Origin: Bacilli bacterium
GTDB taxonomy: Bacteria; Bacillota_I; Bacilli_A; RF39; UBA660
DNA length: 64,000 nt
Direction of reading: 5' to 3'
Assembly (NCBI GenBank): GCA_028691955.1
Contig: JAQUYH010000003.1
Location: 1 to 64,000 of the forward strand
Shown: positions 19,829 through 43,426 of the stretch, piece after piece
Layout of the letters: each line of letters opens with the position of its first letter
Position numbering within the stretch: the stretch's first letter is position 1
Notes under the pieces: model-generated
Told to the model about the DNA's origin: nothing
Database searches by the model: none
What the model saw: the letters and a program-made list of their open reading frames with translations, nothing else
Program-made: the position numbers and the translations under genes

Positions 19829-19837
19829 AATAATTGA

Positions 19838-21566: not shown

Positions 21567-21595
21567 TATAAATTTTTCGAATAAAAGGTGGTTTT

Positions 21596-23372: not shown

Positions 23373-23388
23373 TGTTGTAGCTTTTTTT
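23361..23388 (+). terminator. terminator after the helical protein gene
   Basis: Stem AAGCCGCAA / TTGTAGCTT (one mismatch, one G-T), loop TAATG, seven T. Overlaps the stop codon. Confidence 0.7.
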
Positions 23389-23397
23389 GTAACATGG

Positions 23398-23425
23398 TTG
23401 ACAATTTGTGTAAATATGCTAAAAT
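23398..23425 (+). promoter_or_regulatory. surface-locus promoter P3
   Basis: TTGACA (23398-23403), 16 nt, TAAAAT (23420-23425), with the GGTTGACA, AAATATGCTAAAATA and downstream GTATTGTAGG blocks of P1/P2. Confidence 0.8.
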
Positions 23426-23482
23426 AGAATATGTATTGTAGGATGGTAGATGGTATATTAAGTGTAGGGAGTATTGGTAATA

Positions 23483-24202
23483 ATGAATGATGATTTAATA
23501 CTAAGAGCTGGCAAAGTAAAAAGGAAAAAGAAATTTGTTAGAACTATTAAAATTATACTTACTGTATTGTTATTACTACTACTTTTAATGTATATTGTCG
23601 TAGGAATTGTCTACAATGGCGGAAATTTTAGTATTACACTTGATAAAAATTTATATTTGAAAAACAATATTGTTATTTATGATGATTCCAATTATAAAGT
23701 TTTTAGAACTGAATTGTATGCTAAAACGTTGGATAAGCTTGATAATATTTCTTACAAATGGTTACCGAATGATCTAGATAGTAGTGATGGTGGATCACAT
23801 AACGGTGATAATTATGTGGCGTATACATTTTTTATTGAAAATATGGGAGATATGACTTCTGATTATTGGTCTCAAATTGTTATTGATGATTCAATAAAAA
23901 ATTTAGATGAGGCTATTAGAATTAGGGTTTATAAGAATGGTGAATATGTTACTTATGCTAAACTTGGTATAGATGGTAATCCAGAAAAGGATACAGTAGC
24001 TTTTTTAGATGGTGATGATGCAGTTGCAAGAGATCATGTTGAAAGTTTTATGCCAGGAGATATAAATAAGTATACAATTGTTATTTGGCTTGAGGGTACT
24101 GACCCTGAGTGTACTGATAATATTCTTGGTGGAGAAATTAAAATACATATGGAATTTAATTCAGAGTTTATTGATGAAGAAAGTAATAGTGAGGAGAATT
24201 AG
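23483..24202 (+). CDS. membrane-anchored surface protein, fibre-associated
   Basis: 239 residues. A 25-residue Lys/Arg-rich cytoplasmic start, one long hydrophobic helix (about 26-48), then an exported domain of about 190 residues. The late stretch YTIVIWLEGTDPE resembles the VYIYIEGQDVDN strand of paralogues A-C, suggesting a related beta-sandwich. It lacks the Ala-Trp-Phe processing context, so it may remain membrane-anchored and serve as a base for the neighbouring fibre proteins (inference). ATG at 23483 preferred over TTG at 23474 because GGGAG is 2 nt from the latter. Its stop lies 1 nt before paralogue C. Confidence 0.65.
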   Translation: MNDDLILRAGKVKRKKKFVRTIKIILTVLLLLLLLMYIVVGIVYNGGNFSITLDKNLYLKNNIVIYDDSNYKVFRTELYAKTLDKLDNISYKWLPNDLDSSDGGSHNGDNYVAYTFFIENMGDMTSDYWSQIVIDDSIKNLDEAIRIRVYKNGEYVTYAKLGIDGNPEKDTVAFLDGDDAVARDHVESFMPGDINKYTIVIWLEGTDPECTDNILGGEIKIHMEFNSEFIDEESNSEEN

Positions 24203-24203
24203 T

Positions 24204-25631: not shown

Positions 25632-25640
25632 TGTAATTAT

Positions 25641-25674
25641 AAAGAGTAATCGATAATGGTTACTCTTTGTTCTT
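25641..25674 (+). terminator. terminator after paralogue C
   Basis: Stem AAAGAGTAATC / GGTTACTCTTT (one T-G pair), loop GATAAT, short T-rich tail. Very like the hairpin at 21538. Confidence 0.65.
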
Positions 25675-25689
25675 ATAAGAAGGTGATTT

Positions 25690-26865
25690 ATGGAAAAAAA
25701 GAAGAAAGTAATTAAAAAAAATAGTAACAGCTTAAAGAAAAAAACAGCAGGCAAAAAAAAGACTGTAAAGAAGTCATCTGTTAAAAAGAAAATCCAAAAA
25801 CAAGTTATTCAATTTGTTAGAATCAAAACACCGGAAAATAAATTTAATTTTAAATTTCTTATTTTTCTTATGTTTTTAACTGGTGTCTTGCTTATCTTTT
25901 CTTCATATGCTTGGCTATCAGCTTCTTTAAATGTTAAAGTTAAATTTTTTGATTTAGTTGTTTCAAGTGATAGTGGTTTATTTATTTCTTTAGATGGTAT
26001 AACTTATTCTGATTCTGTGGAACTTAATGCTGATACAGTTGTAAGAGATTTAAAAGCTACTTATCCCAATAATACTAATCAATGGCCTTTAGGTGGCTTA
26101 TGGCCTGTTTCTAGTAATGGTTTATATAGCTCAAATTCAGAAAAGTTTTCTGTATTTATTGGTGAAGTTGTTAAAAAAAGAGGCAGTGTGATAACTTCAA
26201 AGAAATATTTAAATACAGCACTAGGTGATGAAAAGGTTTCTAGTACTACTAATAAGTATATGGCTTTTGATTTGTTCTTAAAGAATGTCAGTGGTTCACC
26301 TTATAGTGACAATTTATATATTGATGATGGAACTGGTGTTGATTTTGCGGAAGATGTTGATGAAGATATTAAAGAAGATTTAAGAGGAGTTCTTAATTCT
26401 ATAAGATTTGGTATTGTTAAAATTTCAAGTACTTCCTCTAAATCTGATATAAATACTATTCAAAACCTTTCATGTAACAACAATTGTCAAATGGTTATTT
26501 ATGAGCCAAATGATAAGGATCATTCAAATATATCAATAGCAAAGGCAAAGGAGCTTGATATTAACTTAGTTGATGGTGAATATTATCCTACTTATGGAGT
26601 TATTAAAGAGGGGACATATCTGGAGATGGCTAATGGTCAAGATGGTTCTGGAATAGCTCTTGATACGGAGCACTTCAGTTTACAAAATACTATAAAATAT
26701 GCTGATTTGGTTAATCCTATCTTTGATATTCCAAGTGGTGTGACAAAGTTTAGAGTTTATGTATGGTTAGAAGGACAGGATGTTGATAGTTTAGCAACAA
26801 CTTCTAAGGGTGCTTCTATTATATTAGCTCTTAACTTCTTAAAAGATTTAGCCGGTTATGAATAA
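25690..26865 (+). CDS. diverged surface paralogue D without Ig-like domain
   Basis: 391 residues. An unusually long Lys-rich cytoplasmic segment of about 50 residues precedes the helix and SYAWLSASLNVKVKFFDLVVSS (Trp75). The remainder aligns with the central domain of A-C through landmarks such as SLDGITYSDSV, YMAFDLFLKNVSG, IYEPNDKDH and VYVWLEGQDVDS, but only two of the four Cys remain (LSCNNNC) and there is no C-terminal Ig domain. Start has AAGGTGAT 5 nt upstream. The positive tail could contact the cytoplasmic parts of the machinery. Confidence 0.7.
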   Translation: MEKKKKVIKKNSNSLKKKTAGKKKTVKKSSVKKKIQKQVIQFVRIKTPENKFNFKFLIFLMFLTGVLLIFSSYAWLSASLNVKVKFFDLVVSSDSGLFISLDGITYSDSVELNADTVVRDLKATYPNNTNQWPLGGLWPVSSNGLYSSNSEKFSVFIGEVVKKRGSVITSKKYLNTALGDEKVSSTTNKYMAFDLFLKNVSGSPYSDNLYIDDGTGVDFAEDVDEDIKEDLRGVLNSIRFGIVKISSTSSKSDINTIQNLSCNNNCQMVIYEPNDKDHSNISIAKAKELDINLVDGEYYPTYGVIKEGTYLEMANGQDGSGIALDTEHFSLQNTIKYADLVNPIFDIPSGVTKFRVYVWLEGQDVDSLATTSKGASIILALNFLKDLAGYE

Positions 26866-26939: not shown

Positions 26940-29900
26940 ATGCAGAATATTAACTTAAAAGATAATAAAAAGATAGCATTAATTATTTTAGTTATAGTTT
27001 TTATTTTATTTAATATTGGGACAAATACTTTTGCAAGATTTAAAAATAGAACTTCTATTGTAAGTGTTGTAGAGTGGGATGGAACGGTCGCTACTTCTTA
27101 TAAAGATGGTGATGGTAGTGAAAATGATCCTTATGTTATATCGAATGGTTCTGAATTAGCTTATTTTAGCTTAAATTTAGAGACAAATAACTATAGTAAT
27201 ACGTACTTTGTATTAAGTAGTGATATTGCTTTAAATGAAGGAAGCTTTGTTTATAATGAAGGTTATTTAGAATATATATTAGATGGAACTACATATTATG
27301 TTGATTTATCAAGTAATAATTATTATTTGGAATCTGATTTTTCAGGAAATGTAATTGGCTCTTTAAACATTATTAATCCATTAGATAATTTTGATGGATA
27401 TTTTGATGGTAAATCTTTTTCTGTATATGGCTTTTATTTAAATAACTTAGAATATGCTGGATTATTTACTAATTTGATTGGAAGTGTTAGTAATTTATAT
27501 GTTGAGAATGCTTTTATAAATGGCGGTAGAGTTTCTGGTGGGGTTGTGTCTAATGCTACTGGTGCTTCTATTAGTAACGTTTTATTTAATGGATACGTAG
27601 TTGGTGAAAGCATTCTTAGTAATACTACTTTGAACTTTGATATATCAGTTAGTGATATTAATTTGTCTTCTACTTTGACAGAGACTGTTATTGATTTATC
27701 TAATAATGAGTCATTTTTGAATTCGGAAATTGTATCAACTTCTATATCTGGAGATTATATTATTAATAATTCCACAGAAGAAAATACAACTATTACAATT
27801 AATGGTGAGGCGGTAACAGGAGGAAGTTTTAATATTGATTTGGGTACTAGTATTTTAGATAATGTATCTTGTATAACTATGGGTGAAGAAGGTGCATCTA
27901 TTACATTTTCTAATGTTCAGTATAATGTTGTTTACAAATATTCAGTAGCTGGTGGGATTATTGGTTATAGCGAAGGTAGTATTTTAAATAATGTCGTTAA
28001 TAAAGGTAGTATATATGGATATTCAGTATCGGGTGGCGTTATTGGTGTCGCAACAGATTCTTTAGTTTTAAATCGTAGTTATAATATGGGAGAAGCTGAT
28101 AGTTATTATAGCTCAGGTGGAGTTATTGGTAATGTTGATAAGTTAAATAGTAGTGATTTTTATAATATTTATAATATAGGAAGCGGTTCTTTAGGTAGTA
28201 TTATTGCTAATATAAATGATTCTACCTTGGCAATTAATGATTCGTTTAATCCATTAAATACGTATTCAATTTATTCTATAAACAATTCTAATGTAAGTAT
28301 TAGTAACGTGTATATTTTAACTTCTTCATCTTTTGCTTATAGTGGTAGTGTTACAGGCACACCAATAGAAACAACAATAACCAATTTTTATGATGAAACG
28401 TATATGAATAACAATGTGAACTTTGATTCATTTATTAGTTTTGATGATTTAAGTACTAATAATTCTAATGTTTGGGTTTATGAAGCTGATAGTTTTCCAA
28501 TTCTTTATTTAGATGATATCAATAATCCGATAGCTAATTTGAATGCTAATGTTTATAGTTGGAATAATTTGAGCTTTGATTTAAATCCCATAAAATTAAA
28601 TACGAATATTACTTTTAATATTGAAGGGGTTAGTGAGTTAAAACCAATTAAAGAGTCATATTATTATATAAGTAATTATAGTACTCCTTTAACACAAGTA
28701 GAAATTGATAATATTTCTTGGACTAGTTATAGTGATATTGTTCAAATAACTAGTGAAGGAACGTATGTAATATATGTCAAAATAGTTGATTATGATGATG
28801 AAGTGACTTATATAAATTCAGATTTGTTAATACTAGATTTAACTGGTTCGGTTATTAATATTAGTCTTGATAATGAAGAATGGAATTCTAAAACAGAAGA
28901 TTTATCATATTATTATATTAATCAAAGTAAAGATATTACAGTTAGTGCGATAGATGATTTGTCAGGAGTAGATACTGTAGAGTATTATATTACTGATTCT
29001 ATACTAACTAGTGGAGAGTTAGATTTACTTGATACTGGGCTTTGGAATACTTATGATAATGGTATTTCAATAGATACTGAAGGAAAATATATAGTTTATG
29101 TAAAAGTGATTGATAATGTTGGCTATATAACATACGTTAATAGTGATTTTATAGTATATGATGGTTATTATGAAGATAGTATTATAGTTGGTAAAAATGA
29201 AGATAATTATAGTGGGCATTTACCTATAGTAACAGATAAGTCTAGCCTTACTTTTAATTTTTCTTATAGCGCAGAATCTTATGAAATGGTTAATCCAGTA
29301 CATAAAATTAAATCTAGTATGTTGTTACCTATAGGAACTAAGTTAACCTTAATTGATAATATTAATTCTAAAACTTATATTTATACAATTGGTACAAGTG
29401 AAGATATATATGGTTATGGTACTAGCTGCGCTGGATTAGATAATTGTAGTTTGGAAGCAACTTATTTATTATCTACATTTTATCAGGTAGGAACGAATAG
29501 TAGTGTTAAAAATTATGTTGATGATTCTTATTATTCTTTAGGATCTATTGTTGAAGACTTTACTATTAATGTTGATTTTTCAAATACTTCGATTGACTCA
29601 AATTTGGAAAATGAATATATTTATTTAAGCGTATCGGATGATGAAAGCTTAAATGATAGGAAAACATTATTAAGTAATATAAAATATTATAATGTTTATT
29701 ATTTGGTTAATGAGCTATCTACTAAAGCTACACTTAGTTTATCTAGCGAATATAGTGATACAATTTATTTGAATAATGAAGGCATTGAAAATATTGATAT
29801 AGAGAGTAGCTTGGATTATACTTTAATTGATTATAATGATATTGTTGATACAACATATGAAGATAAATATAATTGTTTGCTTATTAAATTAGTCGATTCA

Positions 29901-30587
29901 GAAGGAACTATAGTAACAAAGGACAATCTTCAAAATGTTAAATTTAAAGTGGGAGAAACTGAATATTATATAAGTGACGATGATATGTTTCATGTTGTTT
30001 TAGATGACTCATTTGAATTAGGGGATTATATTTTATCAATGATTAAATATAACGGTAATGGAACGCTAGAAAATGGTGACTATTATTTAAAAATACAAAA
30101 TTATGCTTCATATGATGGCATTTCTTATGATGATATTGGAAGTGATGTAGTTACTATACCAGTTATTGTATCCAATAATGAGTATTTAACTAATTATGCT
30201 TTTGATGTTATTATGTCTACAAATATTTTATATAAAGAAGATGTTAGTTCAACGATACATTTTGATGTTTTACAAAATGGGGATTTAGAAAGCCCCAGTA
30301 TTAAGGTTTCAATGTACAGGAAAACTAATTTAACTGCTTATAATCAAGATTATTCAGTTGTTAATTTACAAACTTATACTTCAAATGGATTAATTTATTA
30401 CATAGATAACGTTTATACTATATTTGCTTCGCCTATAAGTTATACTGGTTATAATGATTCATATAATTTATTAGATTTAGTAATGCTTAATGATTTATTA
30501 GATAATACAGGGTATAAATTTGTTTTTGACTTATATGATGGGGACGAGAAAGTTGGAACAATTAGTAAATATTTTATAGTTAGGTAG
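26940..30587 (+). CDS. giant surface protein with GLUG/beta-helix-like and Ig-like regions
   Basis: 1215 residues. Signal helix (about 11-30) followed by FARFKN, another aromatic context like the Ala-x-Phe of SipW substrates. The first third has GLUG or right-handed beta-helix character: AGLFTNLIGSVSNLYVENAFINGGRVSGGV, then repeated GGVIG and NNVVNKGSIYG elements (given here only as short motifs). Later come two copies of a ...YY(I).. ISVD..G.Y(I)VYVK(I/V)(I)D unit (about 590-640 and 690-740) typical of bacterial Ig-like folds. Tyr/Ser/Asn-rich. First of three genes with tight spacing. Probably an adhesin or fibre tip; ligand unknown. Confidence 0.7.
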   Translation: MQNINLKDNKKIALIILVIVFILFNIGTNTFARFKNRTSIVSVVEWDGTVATSYKDGDGSENDPYVISNGSELAYFSLNLETNNYSNTYFVLSSDIALNEGSFVYNEGYLEYILDGTTYYVDLSSNNYYLESDFSGNVIGSLNIINPLDNFDGYFDGKSFSVYGFYLNNLEYAGLFTNLIGSVSNLYVENAFINGGRVSGGVVSNATGASISNVLFNGYVVGESILSNTTLNFDISVSDINLSSTLTETVIDLSNNESFLNSEIVSTSISGDYIINNSTEENTTITINGEAVTGGSFNIDLGTSILDNVSCITMGEEGASITFSNVQYNVVYKYSVAGGIIGYSEGSILNNVVNKGSIYGYSVSGGVIGVATDSLVLNRSYNMGEADSYYSSGGVIGNVDKLNSSDFYNIYNIGSGSLGSIIANINDSTLAINDSFNPLNTYSIYSINNSNVSISNVYILTSSSFAYSGSVTGTPIETTITNFYDETYMNNNVNFDSFISFDDLSTNNSNVWVYEADSFPILYLDDINNPIANLNANVYSWNNLSFDLNPIKLNTNITFNIEGVSELKPIKESYYYISNYSTPLTQVEIDNISWTSYSDIVQITSEGTYVIYVKIVDYDDEVTYINSDLLILDLTGSVINISLDNEEWNSKTEDLSYYYINQSKDITVSAIDDLSGVDTVEYYITDSILTSGELDLLDTGLWNTYDNGISIDTEGKYIVYVKVIDNVGYITYVNSDFIVYDGYYEDSIIVGKNEDNYSGHLPIVTDKSSLTFNFSYSAESYEMVNPVHKIKSSMLLPIGTKLTLIDNINSKTYIYTIGTSEDIYGYGTSCAGLDNCSLEATYLLSTFYQVGTNSSVKNYVDDSYYSLGSIVEDFTINVDFSNTSIDSNLENEYIYLSVSDDESLNDRKTLLSNIKYYNVYYLVNELSTKATLSLSSEYSDTIYLNNEGIENIDIESSLDYTLIDYNDIVDTTYEDKYNCLLIKLVDSEGTIVTKDNLQNVKFKVGETEYYISDDDMFHVVLDDSFELGDYILSMIKYNGNGTLENGDYYLKIQNYASYDGISYDDIGSDVVTIPVIVSNNEYLTNYAFDVIMSTNILYKEDVSSTIHFDVLQNGDLESPSIKVSMYRKTNLTAYNQDYSVVNLQTYTSNGLIYYIDNVYTIFASPISYTGYNDSYNLLDLVMLNDLLDNTGYKFVFDLYDGDEKVGTISKYFIVR

Positions 30588-30594
30588 GTATGTT

Positions 30595-31134
30595 ATGAAA
30601 GGAAAAATTTTAATAATTATTGGGATTTCTATGACTTTATTATTTACCGTAGGAATTACTTATTCTTATTTTCAAAGCAATACTGGAATGTTTGCTAACG
30701 AAAATATTGCAAAGTTTATTTTTAATGCTGATAGTTTAGATGAGCTTTGTATTGATTTATCTGATTTAAAACCAGGCGATACTAAATCATATGATTTTTC
30801 TATTACAAATTCAATGGATACAAAAGTAAGTGATGTTAATGTTCAATATCAGTTAATTATAAAAACATATCATTTAATGCCTATAACTATTAAGCTTTAT
30901 AGTGTTGTAACAGAGGAAGAAACTTTGATTATGAATTGTGATGAAACTTATAGTAGAAATGAAAACAATGAGCTTTTATGTTCAACTGATAATTTTGATT
31001 TAACTTACAATAATTCTGCTTTAAATGATTATAGATTAGTTATAGAGTTTCCTTCTACTTATGATGATCCGGTGTATGCTAATTTAACTGATTTTATTGA
31101 TATCGAAGCTAATAGTTGGCAAAAAATAGAATAG
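30595..31134 (+). CDS. TasA/CalY-like fibre protein
   Basis: 179 residues, the size of CalY/camelysin-type proteins. Signal helix then ITYSYFQSNTGMF, matching the processing context of SipW-dependent precursors. The block DLSDLKPGDTKSYDFSITN (54-72) matches the N-terminal beta-strand pattern of TasA (a LKPGD followed by a strand and Asn), which is the most diagnostic piece. In Bacillus such proteins polymerise into biofilm fibres. Second gene of the giant-protein operon, 7 nt after it. Confidence 0.75.
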   Translation: MKGKILIIIGISMTLLFTVGITYSYFQSNTGMFANENIAKFIFNADSLDELCIDLSDLKPGDTKSYDFSITNSMDTKVSDVNVQYQLIIKTYHLMPITIKLYSVVTEEETLIMNCDETYSRNENNELLCSTDNFDLTYNNSALNDYRLVIEFPSTYDDPVYANLTDFIDIEANSWQKIE

Positions 31135-31145
31135 GAGTGATATAG

Positions 31146-32042
31146 TTGAAACTAAGTAAAACTAAAATAAATATATTAATATTATTAATTGTTTCTTTGT
31201 TATTTACGATGACATTTAGTTATGCTAAATACGCTTCTAATTTAGTAAAGGACTATTATTTGAAATCAAAGGGTTTTTATTTTTATAGTGATTATTTAGA
31301 TATTATTCCTGTTAATAATTCTAATAATGCATGGGATTATGAGGCAATAAGTTTTAATATTAGAAATAATTTAAATGATAGTGTAGCAAGTGATTATGAT
31401 ATAAGTTATACGGCGAGTTGTTCTATTGAAGGAGTTTCGGAAACAGACGTGGTTTGTAATATGTATAATTCATCAACAGACATATATAATGGAATTATAA
31501 GTAGTGTGAAAGCTTGTATTAATGAAACTTCTGATTTAGTTGATGTTTCTTCTTATACAGAAGAAGAGTGTAATAATGGCGGTTATCTTTATAAGAGTAT
31601 TAAGAATGAAGTCAATCTTTATTTTGATATAGATTTAGTTAATCAAAGTTATATCATTACTGATTTAATAGTTGATGTTGATGTAGTAAGTACTAGTCCT
31701 TATAGCAAAACAATAAGTGGGAAATTTTATATACATAAAGATAACGATCAATTAATAGTAGTTAATATGAATGATTATAGTAATTATGATAGGTTAAATT
31801 TATATAATTCATCAGATACTTCTAAATGTATTCAAGTTAGTTGGAATACTAGTAAGTTTTTAATAGATAATCCTTATTCTGATTTTCCAAATTATTTAAC
31901 TGATACAAATAACTATATTAATGAGTTTAAAATTATGTTGGAAGCAAATACTAGTATCAGTTATGTTTTTTATAAAAATAGTTTTTCTTCTACTTATACT
32001 ATAGATGATTTCAACATTTTAGAAGATTGTACTATTGAGTGA
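31146..32042 (+). CDS. SipW-type exported surface protein
   Basis: 298 residues. Signal helix followed by TFSYAKYASNLV, a SipW-like context with Tyr for the last aromatic. Exported part is Asn/Ser/Tyr/Asp-rich, with five or more Cys (for example ASCSIEG, VVCNMY, KACINE, EECNNGG), so disulfides are likely. The start is a TTG with AGGAG about 8 nt upstream. Third gene of the giant-protein operon, 11 nt after the TasA-like gene. No further domain recognised. Confidence 0.62.
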   Translation: MKLSKTKINILILLIVSLLFTMTFSYAKYASNLVKDYYLKSKGFYFYSDYLDIIPVNNSNNAWDYEAISFNIRNNLNDSVASDYDISYTASCSIEGVSETDVVCNMYNSSTDIYNGIISSVKACINETSDLVDVSSYTEEECNNGGYLYKSIKNEVNLYFDIDLVNQSYIITDLIVDVDVVSTSPYSKTISGKFYIHKDNDQLIVVNMNDYSNYDRLNLYNSSDTSKCIQVSWNTSKFLIDNPYSDFPNYLTDTNNYINEFKIMLEANTSISYVFYKNSFSSTYTIDDFNILEDCTIE

Positions 32043-32182: not shown

Positions 32183-32830
32183 ATGAAAAAGGTATTTAAA
32201 GTTATTAAAAAAATTATATTGGGAATTTTAGGAGTTATATTTTTTGGATTTGCTATTATAATGACTATTTTATTACTTGGCATGAATGATTATGGGGTTT
32301 CACAGTTTGGAAATACTTCTCTTGTAATTATTCCAAGCGATATATCATCTGATAATTATACTAAAGGAGATTTAGTTGTTGTTGAAAGTAAAAAAATTGG
32401 TCAATTAAATGTAGGAGACGAAATTTTTACTTATAAGTTAGATGGAAGCGGAGCTGTTTATATTCAATTAGGTGAAATTGGGGAAGTACATACGGATGAA
32501 GATGCTGTTACTTTTGTAAATGGAGACACATATTCTATGAAATTTGTGGCTGGTATTGCAACTGATAAATATAGTAATTTAGGAACTTATATGTCTATTA
32601 TTGAATCAAAATGGGGATTTTTGTTTATTGTATTAGTACCAAGTTTCTTAATGTTTGTTTGGGAATTCTATGCTTTAGTTATTGAAATTAAATATGGAAA
32701 AGAAGAAGATTATGTTGACGTTCCTGTCGAAGTTGTTAAAGAAAAAATAGCTGAGATTCCTGTAGAAAAGATGGAAGAAGCTTTAAAAGAGGAAGAAGAA
32801 AAGTCTTTGAAAGAAGAAGAAAAAGAGTAA
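32183..32830 (+). CDS. signal peptidase I-like protein, catalytic residues apparently lost
   Basis: 215 residues: N-terminal membrane helix (about 9-32), an outside domain with the signal peptidase (S26) strand pattern (KGDLVVVES, LNVGDEIFTYKL), a second helix (about 146-168) and a Glu/Lys-rich cytoplasmic tail. In active SipW-type enzymes the Ser is in (S)GSMEP and the general base in THxV. Here those places read QFGNTSLVII (41-50) and VYIQLGEI (92-99), without Ser-Met-x-Pro or His. Known precedent: inactive peptidase relatives acting as chaperones or scaffolds; that role is inference here. Confidence 0.65.
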   Translation: MKKVFKVIKKIILGILGVIFFGFAIIMTILLLGMNDYGVSQFGNTSLVIIPSDISSDNYTKGDLVVVESKKIGQLNVGDEIFTYKLDGSGAVYIQLGEIGEVHTDEDAVTFVNGDTYSMKFVAGIATDKYSNLGTYMSIIESKWGFLFIVLVPSFLMFVWEFYALVIEIKYGKEEDYVDVPVEVVKEKIAEIPVEKMEEALKEEEEKSLKEEEKE

Positions 32831-32855: not shown

Positions 32856-32929
32856 AATTCTATTGTAAATGAATGTTGGTTGTGGTAAAATTTATATATA
32901 CTAGTGTCTTGTAAGTAAGGATGATATAT

Positions 32930-34948
32930 ATGCATATTAATTTTAAAAATATTTTTGAAAAGATTATGAATACTACATTAAATGTTTTAATTTTTCTTTT
33001 TGCTATTATACTTGTAATTACTATATATACAAGTTTTCAAACCAAGGTATTAAAGAACGATTATAACAATTTTTTTGGTTATTCTCTTTTTGAAGTACAA
33101 ACTGGCAGTATGAGTCCTACTATTGAAGCAGGTGACTGGATAATTGTTAAGATAACTAATAATGTGAAATTAGATGATATTGTTACTTATAAGTTAGGGA
33201 ATGATTTTGTCACTCATAGGGTAATTGAAGGATATAGTGATACTTTTGTTACTAAGGGAGACGCTAATAATGCTAAAGATGATCCTATTACTAAAAGTCA
33301 AATAGTTGGTAGGGTTACTAAGATTTTATCTTCTTTTGGGATATTTAGAAAAACTTTATTTAATCCTGGTGTTTTGATAACGCTTATATTAACTTTATTT
33401 ACTATTAATTTTGTGTTTAAAAAAGATAATGATTTTATGAAAAAGCTTTCTTTAATTAAAAATAAATTATTTAAAGAAAAAAAAGTTGATGAAGAAGTTG
33501 TTAGCAAAAAAGTAGTTGATAATAGTGTTAAAGTAGATGATAAAGTAAAAGTATTAGTTGATGATAAGAGTTTATCTAATGAAGATTTAGAGAAAACTTC
33601 TTTATTTAGAGTTGTTTCAGTTGATGAAAAAGAAGTAGATGTTGATACCTTAAATAACATGAAACAAAGTATAAATGAAAGTAGTGATGACTTAGAGAAA
33701 ACTAGTTTATATAGAATGATTTCTGTTGATTCAGAAGAAGTTAAAGATACTCTTTTAGAGATTGCTAAAAATGAGCTTAAAGAATCAAATGGAGTTGTTG
33801 CTATTGATGAGAAGGAAGAAGACCCTAAAGAAGAAGAAAAAGAAGTTGAACTAAAGCTTGAACTATTTAAAAAGAAAAAGAGTAAAAATGTTATTGATTT
33901 AACAATGATTATAATGAAGAATTATTTAGAGGAAGTAACTAATATTATACTTAAAAATAATAAATCCATTTATAAAGAGTCTGTTGTTAGAAATGCTTTT
34001 ATTGATTTATATATTAATGTTAAATATCGTGATTTACAGTTAAATAGTGAAATATCTGGTAGAATTTTATCAGCAAAAATAGCTAAAAATATCAAATTAT
34101 TATCAATACAATTAGTTGATGATTATGTGGGGAAAAATAAGAATTATGCAGCTATTGTTGATATATATAAAAATACATTTTTACTAATCAATGATTTAGA
34201 AAAAGCAAGTGATTCTATAACTGATTATAAAGTGAAAAAAGAGTTTTATATTAAAGAATTAGCTAAATATTATAATGAAGATCCAAGTAAGGAAATTGAA
34301 TATATTTATGGTGTTTTAATTAAAACAAAAAGAACTTATAATTCTGTAATTGATGAAACACTTAAAAAGTTTGAAACAAATATGTTTAATTTGGTATTTA
34401 ATAGATTGTCTTTAAAGAAAGATATATATTGCTTAAAGCTTGAACATAATATCAATTTTAGTAAAGTATATAGTGATTATGTTATTGATAAAACATATAA
34501 TGAAGGTGTTGTTGCAGAAGATAAGGTGTTAGTTTTATTAAATTTACTTTCTTTGCAATTATTAAAGGATATGAGAGAATCTTATTTTAATAGAAAGTAT
34601 GTTTTCTATCTTCCTGATACGTTATATAAAAAGGCTAAAAAAATTGAAAGTACTCTTAAAATGATTGATGATGCATATGCTAAAGAAAATGTTTTTATTT
34701 TAATTAAAGTTAGTATTTTAAATAAGAATAAAAAGATTATTCAGGCTTTGAAAAAAGAAGGATTTAAGTTTGTTGGAGTAATTGATGTTGATCTTAAAAA
34801 TAAACCTTTTATAAATGTTTTAGATTATATTTTCTGTTCTAAAGATGAAGAAGAAGATATAAGAAATTATGTTCCAGAGGATTTAAGAGAGAACATAATT
34901 TGTGAAGATATTACTGATAAACTAGGAGACTTTGGGGGTGAAGAATAA
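32930..34948 (+). CDS. SipW-type signal peptidase fused to a large unknown cytoplasmic domain
   Basis: 672 residues. Residues 1-165 are a complete SipW/ER-type signal peptidase: helix (about 16-35), catalytic TGSMSPTI with Ser60, GDWIIVK, FVTHRVIEG with His96, the KDDP block (117-119), and a second helix (146-163). Then comes a linker with a repeated motif DLEKTSL(F/Y)R.(V/I)SVD at 219-232 and 254-267, an acidic segment, and about 370 residues of helical cytoplasmic domain of unknown family. SipW proteins are normally about 190 residues, so this is a fusion. Start 32930 chosen because AAGGATGA precedes it; 32921 lies on that site. Overlaps the AAA+ gene by 1 nt. Confidence 0.8.
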   Translation: MHINFKNIFEKIMNTTLNVLIFLFAIILVITIYTSFQTKVLKNDYNNFFGYSLFEVQTGSMSPTIEAGDWIIVKITNNVKLDDIVTYKLGNDFVTHRVIEGYSDTFVTKGDANNAKDDPITKSQIVGRVTKILSSFGIFRKTLFNPGVLITLILTLFTINFVFKKDNDFMKKLSLIKNKLFKEKKVDEEVVSKKVVDNSVKVDDKVKVLVDDKSLSNEDLEKTSLFRVVSVDEKEVDVDTLNNMKQSINESSDDLEKTSLYRMISVDSEEVKDTLLEIAKNELKESNGVVAIDEKEEDPKEEEKEVELKLELFKKKKSKNVIDLTMIIMKNYLEEVTNIILKNNKSIYKESVVRNAFIDLYINVKYRDLQLNSEISGRILSAKIAKNIKLLSIQLVDDYVGKNKNYAAIVDIYKNTFLLINDLEKASDSITDYKVKKEFYIKELAKYYNEDPSKEIEYIYGVLIKTKRTYNSVIDETLKKFETNMFNLVFNRLSLKKDIYCLKLEHNINFSKVYSDYVIDKTYNEGVVAEDKVLVLLNLLSLQLLKDMRESYFNRKYVFYLPDTLYKKAKKIESTLKMIDDAYAKENVFILIKVSILNKNKKIIQALKKEGFKFVGVIDVDLKNKPFINVLDYIFCSKDEEEDIRNYVPEDLRENIICEDITDKLGDFGGEE

Positions 34949-36468
34949 TGGATACATTTTTAAGATTCTTTTATGAATTTATTTCTATCTTTTTTGATGG
35001 ATTGTTTGATATTCTTAATGGCATAGTTGACGGGATTGTTAAAATGTTTAATTATTCTGAGTACGCTAAAATATTAGATAGTTACAAAGATAGTTTTGCA
35101 GGTCCTCAATGGGTATTTGTAGGTATTTCTATTGCTGTATTAGTTATAATTGTTGGTATAGTTGCCTTATTATTATTTTTTGGTATTAGAAAACTTATTA
35201 GATTTAGAAATTCTAAGGTAAACCAAGAGGATTTGTTGGATGAAATAGCAGGACTTAATAGTAAAGTAAAAAATCTTATGAAAGAAAAAGAAGAAATAAT
35301 GGCTATGAAAGTCTCACAATTAGGACTTAAACCGGGAGAAGAAGAAGAACCTCAAAAACCTAAAGAGGATGAAGAAGCGGTAAATACAACAAGTAGATTT
35401 TCTAAGTTAACAAGAATTGATAAGGAGTTTGCTAATTTTAAAGCTAAGAATTATGGTAATAGTTATACTTTAACAGAGCTTATTGATAATTTTAGATGTT
35501 TTGCAGCTTCTTCTTTGCATTTATATTATGATTTTGATTTGTTAAGACCTTTTTTTGCAGGCCTGGCTTGTGGAAAAATATTAATTTTACAAGGTATTTC
35601 TGGAACAGGTAAAACTTCCTTAGCTTATGCTTGGGGTAAGTTTGTTAAGAAAGATTCGTGTGTTGCTTCTGTACAGCCTTCATGGCGTGATAAAACAGAA
35701 TTATTAGGTTATTTTAATGAATTTACAAAGAAGTTTAATGAAAGCCCTGTTCTTGAAGAATTATATGTTGCAGGACTTGATGATGATGTTCATACAATTA
35801 TACTAGATGAAATGAATATAGCTCGTGTTGAATATTATTTTGCTGAGCTACTTTCTATTTTGGAAATGCCATCTAGGGAAGAGTGGATTATTGAACTTGT
35901 TACTAATTCATGGCCAGATGATCCTAAAAGAATCATAAATGGGAAAATAAAATTGCCTGGTAATTTGTGGTATATTGGGACAATCAATAATGATGACTCT
36001 ACTTTTATGGTAACAGATAAAGTTTATGATAGAGCTATGCCAATAGATATCAATACAAAAGTAGATCCATTTAAGTGTAGAGAACAAGAGGCTATGAATA
36101 TTAATGCTAGTTACTTGGAATCTTTGTTTAAGGAAGCCGTTGCTAGTAAGACTGTATCTGCTAAAAATATTGAGCAGGTTAAAAAGATGGATGATTATGT
36201 TATTGAACACTTTAGGATAGCTTTTGGTAATAGAATTATGAAACAATTGAATACTTTTGTACCAGTTTACGTAGCTTGTGGTGGGAAAGAGATAGATGCA
36301 ATTGATTACTTTATTGCGAGAAAAATATTTAGAAAATTTGATCAATTAAATATATCTTTTATTAGAGATGAAATTGATCCATTTATTTCTTACTTAAATA
36401 AAGAGTTTGGTAAAGGAACTATGAAAGAGTGTTTAGCTTTCTTAGAGCGTATTAAAAAATCAATATAG
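34948..36468 (+). CDS. membrane-tethered McrB-like AAA+ protein
   Basis: 506 residues. An amphipathic or hydrophobic start (1-35), one clear membrane helix (about 55-82), a Lys/Glu coiled-coil linker (90-145), then an AAA+ domain: Walker A GISGTGKT (216-223), Walker B TIILDEMNIARVEYYFAELL with D287/E288, and the McrB/MoxR-like sensor region GTINNDDSTFMVTDKVYDRA (344-363). The LDEMN(I/L)A.VE.YF.ELLS signature is that of the McrB branch, whose members hydrolyse GTP or ATP. McrB normally is soluble and DNA-targeted; the membrane anchor and the signal peptidase and fibre neighbours argue for envelope work. Overlaps its upstream gene by 1 nt. Confidence 0.85.
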   Translation: MDTFLRFFYEFISIFFDGLFDILNGIVDGIVKMFNYSEYAKILDSYKDSFAGPQWVFVGISIAVLVIIVGIVALLLFFGIRKLIRFRNSKVNQEDLLDEIAGLNSKVKNLMKEKEEIMAMKVSQLGLKPGEEEEPQKPKEDEEAVNTTSRFSKLTRIDKEFANFKAKNYGNSYTLTELIDNFRCFAASSLHLYYDFDLLRPFFAGLACGKILILQGISGTGKTSLAYAWGKFVKKDSCVASVQPSWRDKTELLGYFNEFTKKFNESPVLEELYVAGLDDDVHTIILDEMNIARVEYYFAELLSILEMPSREEWIIELVTNSWPDDPKRIINGKIKLPGNLWYIGTINNDDSTFMVTDKVYDRAMPIDINTKVDPFKCREQEAMNINASYLESLFKEAVASKTVSAKNIEQVKKMDDYVIEHFRIAFGNRIMKQLNTFVPVYVACGGKEIDAIDYFIARKIFRKFDQLNISFIRDEIDPFISYLNKEFGKGTMKECLAFLERIKKSI

Positions 36469-36482
36469 GAGGTTGAGTTAGA

Positions 36483-37613
36483 ATGGCAAAATCTTTTAGT
36501 AATTTTGTTGATAAAGAAAAAGAAAAAAAAGGAAAAAGTTTTTCTAAAAGAGTTTCTTCTGAAATGCATTATAGAAGTATTTTGTCTGGAGATTTAACAT
36601 CTTTTGAATGGCTTAATGAAATTGAGTTGGCTTGCCCTTATATTGATAATGTTATAAGAAATCCTAAACTTTCTTTGATAAAAGAAGAAGATATTGTTAA
36701 AATAGGTAAAGCTAAAAAAATAACTGTCGATAGTATAAAGGATTTATCAAAACATACACAGTTTATTGATAAAATAGATGAGGTTACTGATGATGTTGAG
36801 CCATCAAAAATTTTAATAGTAAGAAATGAGGAAACTTTTAACACTTATGAGAATAGGTTCTTATATACATTATTGGATTATTTAAATAAGTTTATTGCTA
36901 TTCAGGAAGATTTACTTAAAAAGTTTGAGCTTAAGAATGAAAGAACTATTGAGTATTCTGCTACTTCTAAGGTTGATTCAAAAACGATTAATGTTGATTT
37001 AAAAATTAGTGAAGTAGAAAAACCTAAGGGAAGTAGTAATAAGTCTTTAGAGGATGAAATAGCTAAGGTTAAAAGTAGAGTTAAGGGCGTTAAAGAATAT
37101 CTTAATTATTGGAAGAAAAGTGAAATAATTAAGGCTTTAGATAAGGCACATGTTCCATTAGTAAAAGCGCCTATTAGTATGACTAATATGTTGCTTAAGA
37201 ATCCTAATTTTCAAATTGCCATGAGGCTTTGGACTTTTCTTCAAATGTATGGAACGGTAGAAAATGATGCCCCAAAGGGAACTGATCAAGATGATATTGA
37301 AACTGTAAAAAGTATGATGGATGATACATTTTTAACTAATTATTTTGCATTAGAATTAATGCCTTTGAAAAAAAGAGAACAAAAAAAAGAACTTGTTGAA
37401 TATTCTGTTGTTTTACTTAGAAAACAACTTAAAAAAACAATTCAATTACTTTTAAATAGTGGTTTAGATATAACAGAAAAGGATATTTTAGCTTTAATTT
37501 CTAATGAAATTGAAAGTGGAAAAGATAAAAGGCTAGTAGGTAGTGAGGATGTTAAAAAGAAATTTAAGTCAGCGCTAGATGAGTATTTGGAAAGGACAAA
37601 AGGTATTTTGTAG
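36483..37613 (+). CDS. DUF2357-like (McrC-related) partner without visible nuclease domain
   Basis: 376 residues, soluble. ETFNTYENRFLYTLLDYLNK (117-136) matches the conserved E(T)xENRF helix of DUF2357 proteins, which pair with McrB-type AAA+ proteins. Family members usually end in a PD-(D/E)xK nuclease; I see no Asp...ExK core here, and the C-terminal half is Lys/Leu-rich helix. The gene directly follows the AAA+ gene (14 nt, GGAGG site), so the two likely form a complex. Nucleotide-driven conformational work on a membrane substrate is inferred. Confidence 0.7.
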   Translation: MAKSFSNFVDKEKEKKGKSFSKRVSSEMHYRSILSGDLTSFEWLNEIELACPYIDNVIRNPKLSLIKEEDIVKIGKAKKITVDSIKDLSKHTQFIDKIDEVTDDVEPSKILIVRNEETFNTYENRFLYTLLDYLNKFIAIQEDLLKKFELKNERTIEYSATSKVDSKTINVDLKISEVEKPKGSSNKSLEDEIAKVKSRVKGVKEYLNYWKKSEIIKALDKAHVPLVKAPISMTNMLLKNPNFQIAMRLWTFLQMYGTVENDAPKGTDQDDIETVKSMMDDTFLTNYFALELMPLKKREQKKELVEYSVVLLRKQLKKTIQLLLNSGLDITEKDILALISNEIESGKDKRLVGSEDVKKKFKSALDEYLERTKGIL

Positions 37614-37614
37614 T

Positions 37615-38184
37615 ATGAAAAAATTAAGAGAAAATAAAGCATTTAAAATCATCTCAAAAGTACTTAATGCGATTTTTATTGTTGTATTAGTTGCTTTTAT
37701 TTTAGTTGTTTGTTTGCAAAGGTTTAGTAACAATAAAATTTCTTTTTTTAATTATAGAATGTTTACTGTAATATCAGGCAGTATGGAGCCTAAATATAGT
37801 ATTGGAGATGTTTTGATTTCGAAAGAAATTGCTCCAGAGGATATTAAAGTAGGAGATACTGTTAGTTATTTGGGAACAAAGGGTGATTTTGCTGGTAAGG
37901 TTATTACTCACCAGGTTGTTGAAATATCACAGAATGCTGATGGTGAATATGTATATATAACTAAAGGTTTGGCTAATTTAGTAGCAGATCCTTCTGTAAA
38001 AGAAAGTCAAATATATGGTGTTGTAATATATAGATCATGGTTGTTATCAACTATTTATAATATTGTAGGTAATACTTTAGGTTTTTACTTGTTTATTATT
38101 TTACCTTTACTATTTATAATTGGTTCTGAAATTGTATCAGCATTATTAGATAAAGAAGAAGCAAGGCGTAAATCTATAAAATAA
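37615..38184 (+). CDS. sipW: SipW-type signal peptidase I
   Basis: 189 residues, normal length for SipW. Membrane helix (about 18-35), ISGSMEPKYSIGD with catalytic Ser56, KVGDTVSYL, VITHQVVEI with His99 (His replaces the Lys of standard bacterial enzymes, the ER/SipW type), ADPS with Asp125, and a C-terminal helix (about 150-175). Should cleave the precursors of the Ala-Trp-Phe and TasA-like proteins of this locus. Start 37615, just past the preceding stop; the open frame from 37579 is a shadow inside the DUF2357 gene. Followed by a TasA-like substrate gene after 17 nt. Confidence 0.85.
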   Translation: MKKLRENKAFKIISKVLNAIFIVVLVAFILVVCLQRFSNNKISFFNYRMFTVISGSMEPKYSIGDVLISKEIAPEDIKVGDTVSYLGTKGDFAGKVITHQVVEISQNADGEYVYITKGLANLVADPSVKESQIYGVVIYRSWLLSTIYNIVGNTLGFYLFIILPLLFIIGSEIVSALLDKEEARRKSIK

Positions 38185-38201
38185 ATAAGAAGGTGATATA
38201 A

Positions 38202-39422
38202 ATGAAAAAGAGGCATAAACTATATTTAAAGCTTAATTTAATGTCAGTTGTTTTTATTGTAGTTTCATTTATATCTGTTACGTTAGCTTGGTTTGCTTAT
38301 AGTGGACTTGCAGATGTTGCTACAGAAGTCAATGTTAAAGCTTGGTATATTGAATTATCACAATATGAAGAAGTGGTATCTAATGATATTTCTATAACGT
38401 TTTCTGATATATATCCAGGTATGACTCCTGTCGAAGAAGAGATTAGTATTAAAAATAAAGGAGATTCTGATGCTCAAATTAGTTATGATATTGTTTCAGC
38501 TAGACTTTTAGATGTTGATGAATTTACTGTAGATGATGTTACAACTTCTCCTTATGTGGAAGACTTATTATCTCATGATTATCCATTTCATATTAATATG
38601 ACTTTAAGTAAAGGATATGCTTTAGAAAGTGTTGGCGAAAGTACCTTTAAAGTTTCTATTTCTTGGCCACTTGACTCTGATACTGATGAACTGGATAGTT
38701 ATTGGGGGATGGAGGCTTATAGCTTTGAGCAAGGAGAAATTGAACAGAATACGATAGACCCAGAATATCAAATAAGACCTTCTATTAAAGTTGTTATAAG
38801 AATAAGTGCTGAACAGTATTTAGAAGAAGAGGGAACTAGTGATTATGCTTATAATTTGGGTGATAATATATTATTTGATGTTGTAAGTAATAGTAGGTGC
38901 TATGAAGTAAGTTCTACATGTTTAAGTACTTATGTAATAGATGCTGATAGTAAGTTGTCTGACTCTTATGTTAGTTTATTACCTGATGTTAGTGGTAGTT
39001 ACTCTAGTGGAGTATTTGCTAATTATGACTCTATATTATCTAGTTTGACTAGCACGTGGATGGTAGATTATCAAAGTCTAACTGTGGAAGATGTTTTAAA
39101 TATAATTTCAAATAATATAACTTCTTCTTTATTAGTTAGATCTGGTCTTTCGGATATGATTATTGGTAATTTGAAATATGCTGGTAGAATGACAACAGAG
39201 CTTAATTTAGCTAAATCTTATAGTGGATATTATTTGTTTAGTTTAGAAGATTATAGTTTTTTAAATAGAAGTAGTTGTTATTGGACTAATAGTACTTATG
39301 ATGGAACTTCATCATTTGCTATTATGAACAATACTACTGATTTAAAACTATATAATGAATTAAATACTACCTCTTGTGAAGTAATTCCTGTTATTCATGC
39401 TTTGAAAGCTAATTTGTATTAA
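38202..39422 (+). CDS. TasA-like surface protein
   Basis: 406 residues. Signal helix (about 11-29) then TLAWFAYSGLAD with Ala-Trp-Phe (29-31), the SipW-type context. SDIYPGMTPVEEEISIKNKG (68-87) matches the TasA strand pattern of a PG turn followed by an Asn/Gly-ended strand, consistent with a TasA/CalY fold. The C-terminal 200 residues are unique. Directly after sipW, the arrangement of substrate next to peptidase seen in tapA-sipW-tasA, and last gene of the operon. Two Cys pairs (RCYEVSSTC, SCYW/TSCEV). Confidence 0.72.
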   Translation: MKKRHKLYLKLNLMSVVFIVVSFISVTLAWFAYSGLADVATEVNVKAWYIELSQYEEVVSNDISITFSDIYPGMTPVEEEISIKNKGDSDAQISYDIVSARLLDVDEFTVDDVTTSPYVEDLLSHDYPFHINMTLSKGYALESVGESTFKVSISWPLDSDTDELDSYWGMEAYSFEQGEIEQNTIDPEYQIRPSIKVVIRISAEQYLEEEGTSDYAYNLGDNILFDVVSNSRCYEVSSTCLSTYVIDADSKLSDSYVSLLPDVSGSYSSGVFANYDSILSSLTSTWMVDYQSLTVEDVLNIISNNITSSLLVRSGLSDMIIGNLKYAGRMTTELNLAKSYSGYYLFSLEDYSFLNRSSCYWTNSTYDGTSSFAIMNNTTDLKLYNELNTTSCEVIPVIHALKANLY

Positions 39423-39455
39423 AAAAAGGTAACTCTGGGTTTGAGCTACCTTTTT
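39423..39455. terminator. bidirectional terminator at the end of the fibre locus
   Basis: AAAAAGGTA-A-CTC / GAG-C-TACCTTTTT with one internal mismatch and loop TGGGTTT; T-runs both ways. Confidence 0.75.
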
Positions 39456-40077
39456 ATAATTTCTGTTCAAATTTTATATTAGCACTTAGGTCTAATGTTG
39501 TTCCGTTAATAGTTGCATCATTTCCTACAGCTGTGTCACTTTCATCATCCATTAGTTCTCCGTCTCCTTCAAACCATTCAAAGTAGATTCTAATAGATAT
39601 TTGGTTAAAGCTAAAATCAGGAGTTTCATTATCAAATATTAATTCGTTTGATATTGTGTTTTCTGTTAGTGTTATAAAATCTAATGGATCTCCTTCGATG
39701 TAATCAGTAGGTAATATAGCATATCTTGTAATCATTAAATCTGGTATATTTTCATTTAATACACTTAGTGTAATGGTATAAATGAAGGAAACTTCTACAT
39801 TGTTTGGGTCAATATTTATATCAAAATAACCAGTGGAAGAAGGAGCGACAGTATCATTTTTGACATTAGCATTTTCTTCCATAACTGGGGTAAATTCTAT
39901 ATTTGATGAGCTACTTGTTGTAATATCTGTGTTGTTAACTAAAAGTTGCCATTTAGAAAAAGCAAGGTTTATGTCACCACTAGCATCAGCAACATAACGT
40001 GAATATGTATTGCTCATAAGGCCTAAGCACAAAGAAATAGAAATTAAAGCAAATAGTAATTTAAACTTCTTGGACAT
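39454..40077 (-). CDS. TasA-like surface protein, convergent copy
   Basis: 207 residues. Signal helix (about 6-22) followed by NTYSRYVADASGDINLAFSKW, the SipW-type context. The later region (GYFDINIDPNNVEVSFIYTI) has the beta pattern expected of a TasA-type sandwich. The start at 40077 follows AGGAAGGG by 6 nt; the frame stays open to 40131 without a ribosome site. Transcribed toward the fibre operon and therefore independently regulated. Confidence 0.65.
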   Translation of the reverse strand: MSKKFKLLFALISISLCLGLMSNTYSRYVADASGDINLAFSKWQLLVNNTDITTSSSSNIEFTPVMEENANVKNDTVAPSSTGYFDINIDPNNVEVSFIYTITLSVLNENIPDLMITRYAILPTDYIEGDPLDFITLTENTISNELIFDNETPDFSFNQISIRIYFEWFEGDGELMDDESDTAVGNDATINGTTLDLSANIKFEQKL

Positions 40078-40267
40078 ATTCATCCCTTCCTTTCTATCTT
40101 TATTATATAATCTTTGCAAGTTGTTTGACACTTTTAATGAAAAAAGTTACTAAAAAAGTGTAAATATAAGGTAAATAAAAGCGTAAATATATTTTATTAA
40201 ATAGAATCGTTTTTCCTTTTAAAAAATATATCTTTGTGTTATTATATTATAAGAAAGGATAGATAAA

Positions 40268-41422: not shown

Positions 41423-43426
41423 ATGAATCAAAAGGGAATGACAATGGTTGAATTAATTGTTTCTTTTTCGCTTGCTGCTGTTATTGCTTTATTCTTAACT
41501 GAGGTAATTTTGTTTTTAAAGGATGCTTATGTTAATAACGGAATAAAAACAGAGGTAATTAGTAAGCAAACGCTTATTTCAGAAAGAATAAATACTTTAT
41601 TTAATAGTAAAAGAATTAGTTATGCAGAAAGTTGTGGTGATAGTTGCGTTAACGTAAGTTTTGATGATGGAACAACTTCACAAATTTCTTTTGATAAAGC
41701 ATCTAATTCTGTCGTAGTAGGTAGTTATACTACTAGATTACCTGATTCTTGTATTATAGGTGATGTTACTATTGGAACGGTTTATTTAGGCAATGATACA
41801 GGAAACTTTGATTCTATTTTTCAAATATATGTTCCAATTACTAATTCTATTCTAATCGATAAAACTTTTGATATTGATGTTATATACCAGTATGATTATG
41901 ATGAGGAATTTTGGACCTACAATTCGATTGATGATAATTATCATATAGTTTGTTCAAGTAATATTGCTTATGCATTAGGATCAGATATTAATTTATTGGA
42001 TGGAGTTAGTTTTGTTGATAGTAATAGCAATCCTGTTGATGTTGATATAAAAGTTGTATCTTTGCCAGAAATAAATGTTAATAAGATTGGTGAGTATGAG
42101 GTTTCATATATTGTTATTTATGAAGGTAAAACTTATGTTTCAAAAAGGATTGTTTGTATATATCAATCTGATTATTTTGCGTATATTGAAGGAGCTCAAA
42201 TGTTTACTGTTCCTTTAACTGGTTGGTATAAAGTTGAATTATGGGGAGCTTCTGGTGGTGATGGAAGAGTAGCTAATACATCAACTATTAACGAAGGTAG
42301 TGGTGGAGCTGGTAGTTATACTAGTGGAGAGATATATTTAGAGAAGAATGATAACTTATATTTTTATGTTGGTTCTGAAGGAGAAGATGATTACGACACT
42401 GCTTCTTATACTTATGGCTTAGGAGGTAATAATGGTGGTGGAGATGGCGGCTATGAAAATCGTGTTGAAACTACCCCAGAAAATGGTGCTGGTGGTGGAG
42501 GAGCTACTGATGTTAGATTAGTAAACGGAAATTGGAATGATTCTACTTCACTAGCATCTAGGATAATGGTTGCTGCTGGTGGTGGAGGCGCAGGCTCTTC
42601 TGATGAAGCTCAAGCAAGAGGCGGAATCGGTGGCGGTTTAATTGGTTCAACCAATTCTTCATACACAATAGCAGCTACACAAATTTCAGGTTATCAGTTA
42701 GGAATTGGTAAAACAGGCTATATTAGTGCGGATAATTATGGGGCTTATGGAGGCGGCGGCGGCGGTTATTATGGAGGATCATGGACTTCTACCAATACTG
42801 CTACAACTGTTGCTCAAGGTGGCGCTGGCGGATCATCTTTTATATCAGGCTATGCTGGAGTTAATGCTATAACTTCTGCATCATCTACAACTCCGACTTA
42901 TAATACTATTCATTATTCTGATTATTATTTCATTGATGGAAGTATGTCTGCTGGAGTTAATGTTGGAGATGGAAAAGCAAAAATAACATTTATTTCTCTT
43001 ACTAAGCCTGCTGTTACTAATAATAATTTGAATAATGTACGATATATTAAAGATTGTGCAAGTGATAATAGTGTTAATACAGGTACTCATTGGGTGGAAT
43101 TACAGGCCATTGTAAACGGAACAAATTTGGCTTATGGTGCTACAGTAACTGGCGTAAATACTGGAGATTTAGGATATGTTGTTGATGGAGATATATCATC
43201 ATCAACTTATGGTTCTGGTTGGAATACCCCACAGCAATGTATTACTGTCGATTTAGGAACAAATTATGATTTAGACGAAATTGCTGTATGGCATTATTGG
43301 ACTGATGGTAGAATATATTATGGTAATGTTACTTATACATCTTCAGATAATGTAAATTGGAATATTATAATTAATACTGGAGATCAAGCTGAAACTTCAA
43401 ATGGGAAAAGAGTATCAGCATACTAG
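41423..43426 (+). CDS. prepilin-like protein with glycine-rich and F5/8C-like domains
   Basis: 667 residues. Type IV pilin-class N-terminus MNQKGMTMVELIVSFSLAA (peptidase site Gly5-Met6, Glu at mature position 5). Then a pseudopilin-like segment (about 35-190), a DUF5011-like strand region (about 190-250), a large glycine-rich domain (about 255-520) of the kind starting MFTVPLTGWYKVELWGASGG and containing GGGGATDVRLV and SRIMVAAGGGGAG, and a C-terminal discoidin (F5/8 type C)-like domain (about 530-660) with ITVDLGTNYDLDEIAVWHYW. The end domain suggests carbohydrate binding. Follows ftsW by 12 nt, precedes the SepM-like gene by 10 nt. Confidence 0.8.
   Translation: MNQKGMTMVELIVSFSLAAVIALFLTEVILFLKDAYVNNGIKTEVISKQTLISERINTLFNSKRISYAESCGDSCVNVSFDDGTTSQISFDKASNSVVVGSYTTRLPDSCIIGDVTIGTVYLGNDTGNFDSIFQIYVPITNSILIDKTFDIDVIYQYDYDEEFWTYNSIDDNYHIVCSSNIAYALGSDINLLDGVSFVDSNSNPVDVDIKVVSLPEINVNKIGEYEVSYIVIYEGKTYVSKRIVCIYQSDYFAYIEGAQMFTVPLTGWYKVELWGASGGDGRVANTSTINEGSGGAGSYTSGEIYLEKNDNLYFYVGSEGEDDYDTASYTYGLGGNNGGGDGGYENRVETTPENGAGGGGATDVRLVNGNWNDSTSLASRIMVAAGGGGAGSSDEAQARGGIGGGLIGSTNSSYTIAATQISGYQLGIGKTGYISADNYGAYGGGGGGYYGGSWTSTNTATTVAQGGAGGSSFISGYAGVNAITSASSTTPTYNTIHYSDYYFIDGSMSAGVNVGDGKAKITFISLTKPAVTNNNLNNVRYIKDCASDNSVNTGTHWVELQAIVNGTNLAYGATVTGVNTGDLGYVVDGDISSSTYGSGWNTPQQCITVDLGTNYDLDEIAVWHYWTDGRIYYGNVTYTSSDNVNWNIIINTGDQAETSNGKRVSAY

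Follow-up and report, generated by a model that had tools for sequence, protein, structure and literature searches.

Related Systems

In the prevailing view, the TasA-type fibres of Gram-positive bacteria form extracellularly and draw on no energy source. In the tapA-sipW-tasA and sipW-tasA-calY operons of Bacillus, a SipW-type peptidase is encoded beside TasA-like subunits, an arrangement shared by the locus described here. To our knowledge, neither operon encodes an AAA+ or DUF2357 protein. A 2026 study of B. cereus fibres describes the chaperone CapP, and its text contains no reference to an AAA protein or ATPase (PMC13082335).

The locus also resembles McrBC, the type IV restriction system of E. 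coli K-12, in which an AAA+ core and a DUF2357 partner are likewise encoded as a pair. It differs from McrBC in that no PD-(D/E)xK nuclease or DNA-binding domain is found, and in having a membrane anchor, an NxD rather than an NxxD motif, and a neighbourhood of fibre genes.

The closest described class is CoCoPALM, a clade named in a single paragraph by Bell et al. 2024 (eLife 13:RP94800, PMC11090510) and deferred there to a later paper. As outlined in the main text of that paper, its members pair an McrB-like GTPase with a McrC homologue that carries DUF2357. The GTPase has an NxD motif, after which D or E is the usual residue, and an N-terminal FtsB-like region made of a transmembrane (TM) helix and a coiled coil, and the genes share operons with members of the signal peptidase family. 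The same main text makes no mention of TasA, EAL, GGDEF or c-di-GMP and gives no mechanism. A literature search returned no account of CoCoPALM later than Bell et al. 2024 and no reported function. The class had already been named when the initial annotation of this DNA stated that it knew of no published account of such a system.

The present system is, as judged from its sequence, of the CoCoPALM type and derived from McrB/McrC. It has the NxD McrB-like NTPase with D or E after the motif and with an N-terminal TM helix and coiled-coil-like stretch, the DUF2357 homologue, and the operonic association with signal peptidases. New in this analysis, and absent from the main text of the CoCoPALM report, are a core component (X), fusions of peptidase with X and of SipW with the TasA-like protein TasL, a pseudo-peptidase (TM215) and a linkage to EAL genes.

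Locus Organization

The window (the whole 64,000-nucleotide stretch of DNA that was analysed) belongs to the small genome, of 1.04 Mb, of a gut-type bacterium. The initial annotation described a compact operon of five genes that overlap or lie within 20 nt of each other. All five are present on the plus strand at the place it gave (Table 1), and the gaps along the series fusion, AAA+, DUF2357, SipW and TasL are -1, 14, -35 and 17 nt. The extent given for the operon was too small, as fibre-type proteins (26940-32042) and a pseudo-peptidase (32183-32830) precede the five genes in a larger unit. The hairpin after TasL was missed by a consensus terminator scan, and promoter and terminator scans of the locus performed no better than on shuffled sequence.

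Table 1. Features of the locus, with positions in the window and the evidence for each.
Feature	Position	Strand	Evidence and remarks
Secreted surface protein of 1215 aa, signal anchor of SipW type	26940..30587	+	TM aa 6-34; upstream gene kept in most close relatives
TasA/camelysin-like fibre subunit T179	30595..31134	+	Peptidase_M73 (camelysin) Pfam match 1e-5, over cut-off; conserved in the neighbourhood
Secreted protein T298	31146..32042	+	Usually directly upstream of X
Pseudo-signal peptidase TM215, S26B-like	32183..32830	+	Catalytic Ser/His motifs missing; two TMs
Fusion gene, whole (S26B peptidase and X)	32921-34948	+	
S26B signal peptidase half of fusion	32921..33445	+	TIGR02228 1e-20; TGSM and THRV motifs
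Component X (helical bundle and probable degenerate EAL-like domain), cytoplasmic, peptidase-fused	33887..34849	+	Gene position, AF2, Foldseek
Membrane-anchored McrB-like AAA+ NTPase, NxD motif	34948..36468	+	TM, invariant motifs, McrB PDB matches
McrC-like DUF2357 partner without nuclease	36483..37613	+	DUF2357 profile, gene position
SipW-type signal peptidase	37579..38184	+	TIGR02228 1e-22; true start probably 37615, one base past the DUF2357 stop
TasA-like secreted fibre subunit TasL	38202..39422	+	Position; SipW fusion in L088 and L149
Hairpin flanked by T/A tails where the convergent genes meet; likely the terminator that closes the operon	39422..39455	.	Sequence read directly
Convergent TasA-like secreted protein TasC	39454..40131	-	Convergent after TasL in most relatives

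Several other genes flank the locus. A row of SipW-type secreted proteins lies at 18338-26865; three end in Bact_surface_Ig-like domains and closely resemble one another, and the row looks like a duplicated subunit family. A soluble, helical-looking protein of 557 aa with no Pfam match (21699-23372) is found among fibre genes in several relatives as well. Downstream, at 41423-43426, lies a fusion protein whose N-terminus weakly resembles type IV pilins (N_methyl) and whose other part is a glycine-rich domain of ALK/LTK type (8e-45).

Conservation and Distribution

A scan of GTDB genomes recovered at least 470 relatives, and the neighbourhoods of the best 80, from Bacilli and Clostridia and mostly metagenome-assembled, were surveyed. 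In these best 80 of at least 470, the DUF2357 gene directly follows the AAA+ gene in 79/79 testable loci, SipW is the second gene downstream in 73/78, a TasA-like gene comes after SipW in 71/76, and X lies directly upstream of the AAA+ gene in 73/76. Such flanking-gene counts place the arrangement far beyond chance. A signal peptidase of any kind occurs in 78/80 of the loci. The initial annotation had made its reading dependent on a neighbourhood conserved in relatives; the order is indeed conserved across both classes, with the export and fibre proteins it had noted adjoining almost every locus.

Within the window's family the AAA+ gene is patchy, being carried by 57/193 genomes. X is found in 50 genomes of this family, all of them among the 57 that are AAA+-positive (Fisher 5e-39). 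A search of 2.9 million viral contigs gave a single weak match.

The AAA+ and DUF2357 Pair

The AAA+ protein consists of one TM segment (aa 49-86), a coiled-coil-like stretch and a McrB-like AAA+ domain that matches E. coli McrB structures in the PDB at E=0.004. The membrane-anchored McrB-type protein of the initial annotation is borne out, with a TM anchor predicted by hydropathy in 79/79 relatives. The Pfam family AAA_5 was matched in 11/15 relatives. In 40/40 relatives the motifs GISGTGKTS, LDEMN and GTINND show no variation, and both Walker motifs, A and B, are intact. Of these relatives, 39 have D directly after NND and one has E, so the motif reads as NxD followed by D/E, the signature of the NxD clade. 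FtsB-type homology of the N-terminus is weak (DivIC 0.018 and FtsL 0.013, in one member each of 15). No Pfam match to a modified-DNA binding domain was obtained for the AAA+ protein, in which the N-terminal region is occupied by the TM segment and coiled coil. The candidate defence model PDC-M26A of PADLOC matches the AAA+ protein at 1e-35.

The partner protein in the window matches DUF2357 in Pfam at 1.3e-10, and the domain (PF09823) is present in 45/45 partner relatives. The initial annotation had described this partner as lacking an evident nuclease, and had counted a functional PD-(D/E)xK nuclease in it, together with phage restriction activity, among the findings that would speak against its reading. 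A family search of the 45 relatives found no nuclease family, PD-(D/E)xK included. The C-terminal region of these proteins is helical and without conserved acidic residues, and hydropathy analysis gave no TM segment in 78 DUF2357 proteins. The structure model is of moderate quality (pLDDT 77) with a helical C-terminus, and a fold search with it returned no significant match, McrC included. PADLOC matched neither the DUF2357 protein nor the peptidase-X fusion.

Component X and the Peptidase Fusion

The N-terminus of the fusion is an S26B peptidase (TIGR02228, 1e-20) that bears the motifs TGSM and THRV, and is followed by a cytoplasmic stretch of about 490 aa. The two TM helices predicted by hydropathy (aa 13-44 and 145-168) place the rest of the fusion in the cytoplasm. 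The initial annotation was right to see a signal peptidase with a large cytoplasmic domain; this domain is a conserved component in its own right, and elsewhere it usually stands free. Across 73 loci with X, it is free-standing in 58 and peptidase-fused in 15, and the catalytic Ser and His motifs are retained in nearly all of the fused members. X is a core component of the system and is newly recognized here.

The AF2 model of X from the window, made with a 39-row alignment, has a pLDDT of 91.7 and a pTM of 0.89, and combines a bundle of six helices with an alpha/beta half. When this model was compared with the PDB by Foldseek, the first 47 matches all contained EAL domains (best E 6e-5; FimX 2e-4), with modest TM-scores of mostly 0.3-0.48. 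A Pfam EAL match was seen in 2/39 members (2.7e-4). The profile of X compared with EAL gave a non-significant 0.084 and a deeper profile gave E=0.024 in matching register; controls with shuffled or unrelated sequences gave 0.14-0.63. As the profile search alone is not significant, the EAL assignment is drawn from the structure model and gene position, by which the C-terminal half of X is probably a degenerate EAL domain.

X may resemble FimX and LapD, degenerate EAL receptors whose non-catalytic EAL-like domain is connected with surface structures; the EAL structures of FimX rank with its best structural matches. It differs from them in that neither an EAL catalytic motif nor a recognizable GGDEF is visible in the X sequence, and binding of c-di-GMP by X is only putative. 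X was also considered as the carrier of the missing nuclease; this idea was rejected, since no nuclease match was found for it by Pfam, PDB sequence or fold.

Peptidases and Fibre Proteins

The standard SipW and TasA-like substrate of the initial annotation were both recovered. The former matches TIGR02228 at 1e-22, with the S26B catalytic Ser and His present. TasL is secreted and has no family match, and its assignment follows from its signal anchor, motif and conserved place. TasL and TasC are called TasA-like by neighbourhood and motif, and T179 by the Peptidase_M73 cut-off. In two Clostridia loci, L088 (12656-13903) and L149, SipW and TasL are fused in ORFs of 415-417 aa with an internal signal anchor (NAYAWF). 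Enzyme and substrate are tied together by this single polypeptide.

TM215 (215 aa) matches the SipW family profile at E=4e-23, and the catalytic Ser and His motifs are missing from it and from 30 homologues. By its sequence it is a peptidase-like protein that has lost its catalytic residues, a component first reported here. T298 is encoded immediately upstream of X in 57/71 loci, and 19/20 T298-bearing genomes of the window's family also carry the AAA+ gene.

Linkage to EAL Genes

EAL is a c-di-GMP phosphodiesterase domain. Its genes first came to notice beside the AAA+ gene in other Bacilli families, and were then counted in 27 further genomes that carry AAA+ and had not been chosen for EAL. 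An EAL gene lies within 8 kb of 17/36 full-length AAA+ genes where 1.75 are expected (P about 1e-13, which is overstated because the genomes are related), and the EAL genes near AAA+ are on the same strand in 26/26 cases. Three layouts occur. In one, tandem EAL genes lie 4-6 kb upstream of AAA+; in another, a single EAL gene lies about 3 kb downstream, past a peptidase gene; in the third, the slot of X, 59-270 nt upstream of AAA+, is taken by a degenerate GGDEF-EAL protein. The last set gives a profile match to EAL of 3e-22. This linkage is new in this analysis, and it is firm for the wider class, beyond the window's own family.

Two genomes of the window's family were searched for canonical EAL and yielded none. 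The window genome contains no canonical EAL and has three GGDEF proteins, one of them intact. Strong GGDEF genes are not enriched with AAA+ in the family (13/57 vs 21/136, Fisher p=0.22), which gives no support to the idea that c-di-GMP genes track the system there; a single conserved protein, about 680 aa long and degenerate in the window genome, accounts for most GGDEF matches in the family. Since canonical EAL was not found and GGDEF is not enriched, c-di-GMP itself may no longer act in this family.

Proposed Function

The system probably serves SipW/TasA-type fibres and not DNA, as an NTPase complex tethered to the membrane that powers or gates their maturation or assembly. This reading is built on the conserved gene order, the co-occurrence of X with the AAA+ gene, the fusions, the TM anchors, the invariant NTPase motifs, the failure to find a nuclease, the single weak match among viral contigs and the published traits of the class. 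Gene content and order, the hydropathy-based TM anchor, the NTPase motifs, the undetected nuclease and both fusions are direct observations. The NTP-driven membrane complex proposed by the initial annotation fits this evidence; we infer that the parts form a physical complex, that it hydrolyses NTP, and all of its proposed actions, including the assembly, feeding or release of fibres.

The AAA+ protein would be held in the membrane by its one helix and, by analogy with McrB, form a ring on the inner face. The DUF2357 protein, as inferred from McrC, may dock on it and stimulate NTP hydrolysis. X would sit beside the AAA+ protein in the cytoplasm as an adaptor or regulator, and the X-fused S26B peptidase, apparently active from its motifs, could bring the motor beside the subunit-maturing enzyme in the window's lineage. 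The motor would then use NTP to remodel its targets, either fibre subunits or a complex of peptidase and pseudo-peptidase, and so load, gate or release them; action on subunits or their peptidases is suggested by gene context. It is possible, and suggested only tentatively, that this forms a signal-gated machine for fibre maturation and assembly, with an EAL-derived control arm that responds to c-di-GMP in many Bacilli and serves as a peptidase-fused structural adaptor in the window's lineage.

Several points count against a motor, namely the patchy AAA+ gene (57/193), the PDC-M26A match (1e-35), the pLDDT of 77 for the DUF2357 model and the fact that the TasA fibres described so far are not known to involve an AAA+ protein in their assembly. 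Gene association alone cannot tell an assembly motor from a regulator or a quality-control device. The complex could instead switch peptidases on and off without building fibres, for instance through remodelling of the pseudo-peptidase or retention of SipW, and X would supply a signal input that descends from c-di-GMP signalling. The EAL-like fold of X, the EAL proteins in its slot or nearby slots in relatives and the pseudo-peptidase encoded beside active peptidases all favour such a switch; the two genomes searched without canonical EAL and the unenriched GGDEF (p=0.22) of the window's family weigh against it, and it is judged rather unlikely.

Anti-phage defence of the CoCoNuT/McrBC kind, with the surface or membrane as effector, would account for the McrB-like AAA+ and McrC-like DUF2357 pair typical of restriction systems, the PDC-M26A match and the patchy distribution. 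It is improbable given that no nuclease or nucleic-acid recognition domain was detected, that all members have the TM anchor, that export and fibre genes adjoin almost every locus, and that PADLOC is silent on the other two proteins. Gene association is the main evidence throughout, which invites the suggestion that a restriction-like pair merely lies beside fibre genes by chance or hitch-hiking. The order seen in 71-79 of 76-79 testable loci in two classes, together with the fusions, refutes this as a general explanation and leaves it scarcely credible.

If the proposal of a fibre-directed NTPase complex is true, an inner-face NTPase adds an energized step to TasA-type fibre assembly, a restriction motor has been recruited to cell-surface biology, and the role of the numerous nuclease-less McrBC relatives in Firmicutes is explained. 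The EAL linkage makes the switching-on of such fibres directly testable.

Variant Loci

A group of loci (L228-L231, L238-L242) has a second layout and encodes, in this order, a giant surface protein of 1300-2200 aa, a degenerate GGDEF-EAL protein, AAA+ and DUF2357. The GGDEF-EAL protein is below detection in some of them and no recognized SipW lies nearby; the surface protein has a C-terminal membrane anchor in the three that were read. At L216 (G198:C24), the AAA+ gene is shortened to its C-terminal part (202 aa), and an intact EAL protein is encoded 23 nt upstream of it. Proteins of 349-399 aa upstream of AAA+ in L221, L227 and L232-L237 are like X in size only and do not match it; at least some look like secreted fibre proteins. 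In L144 and L146 the AAA+ and DUF2357 genes adjoin a secreted protein of 2760 aa, and an unrelated gene replaces X. An in-frame TGA splits the AAA+ gene in one genome (L038, G037:C72), which is probably a broken copy or a sequencing error.
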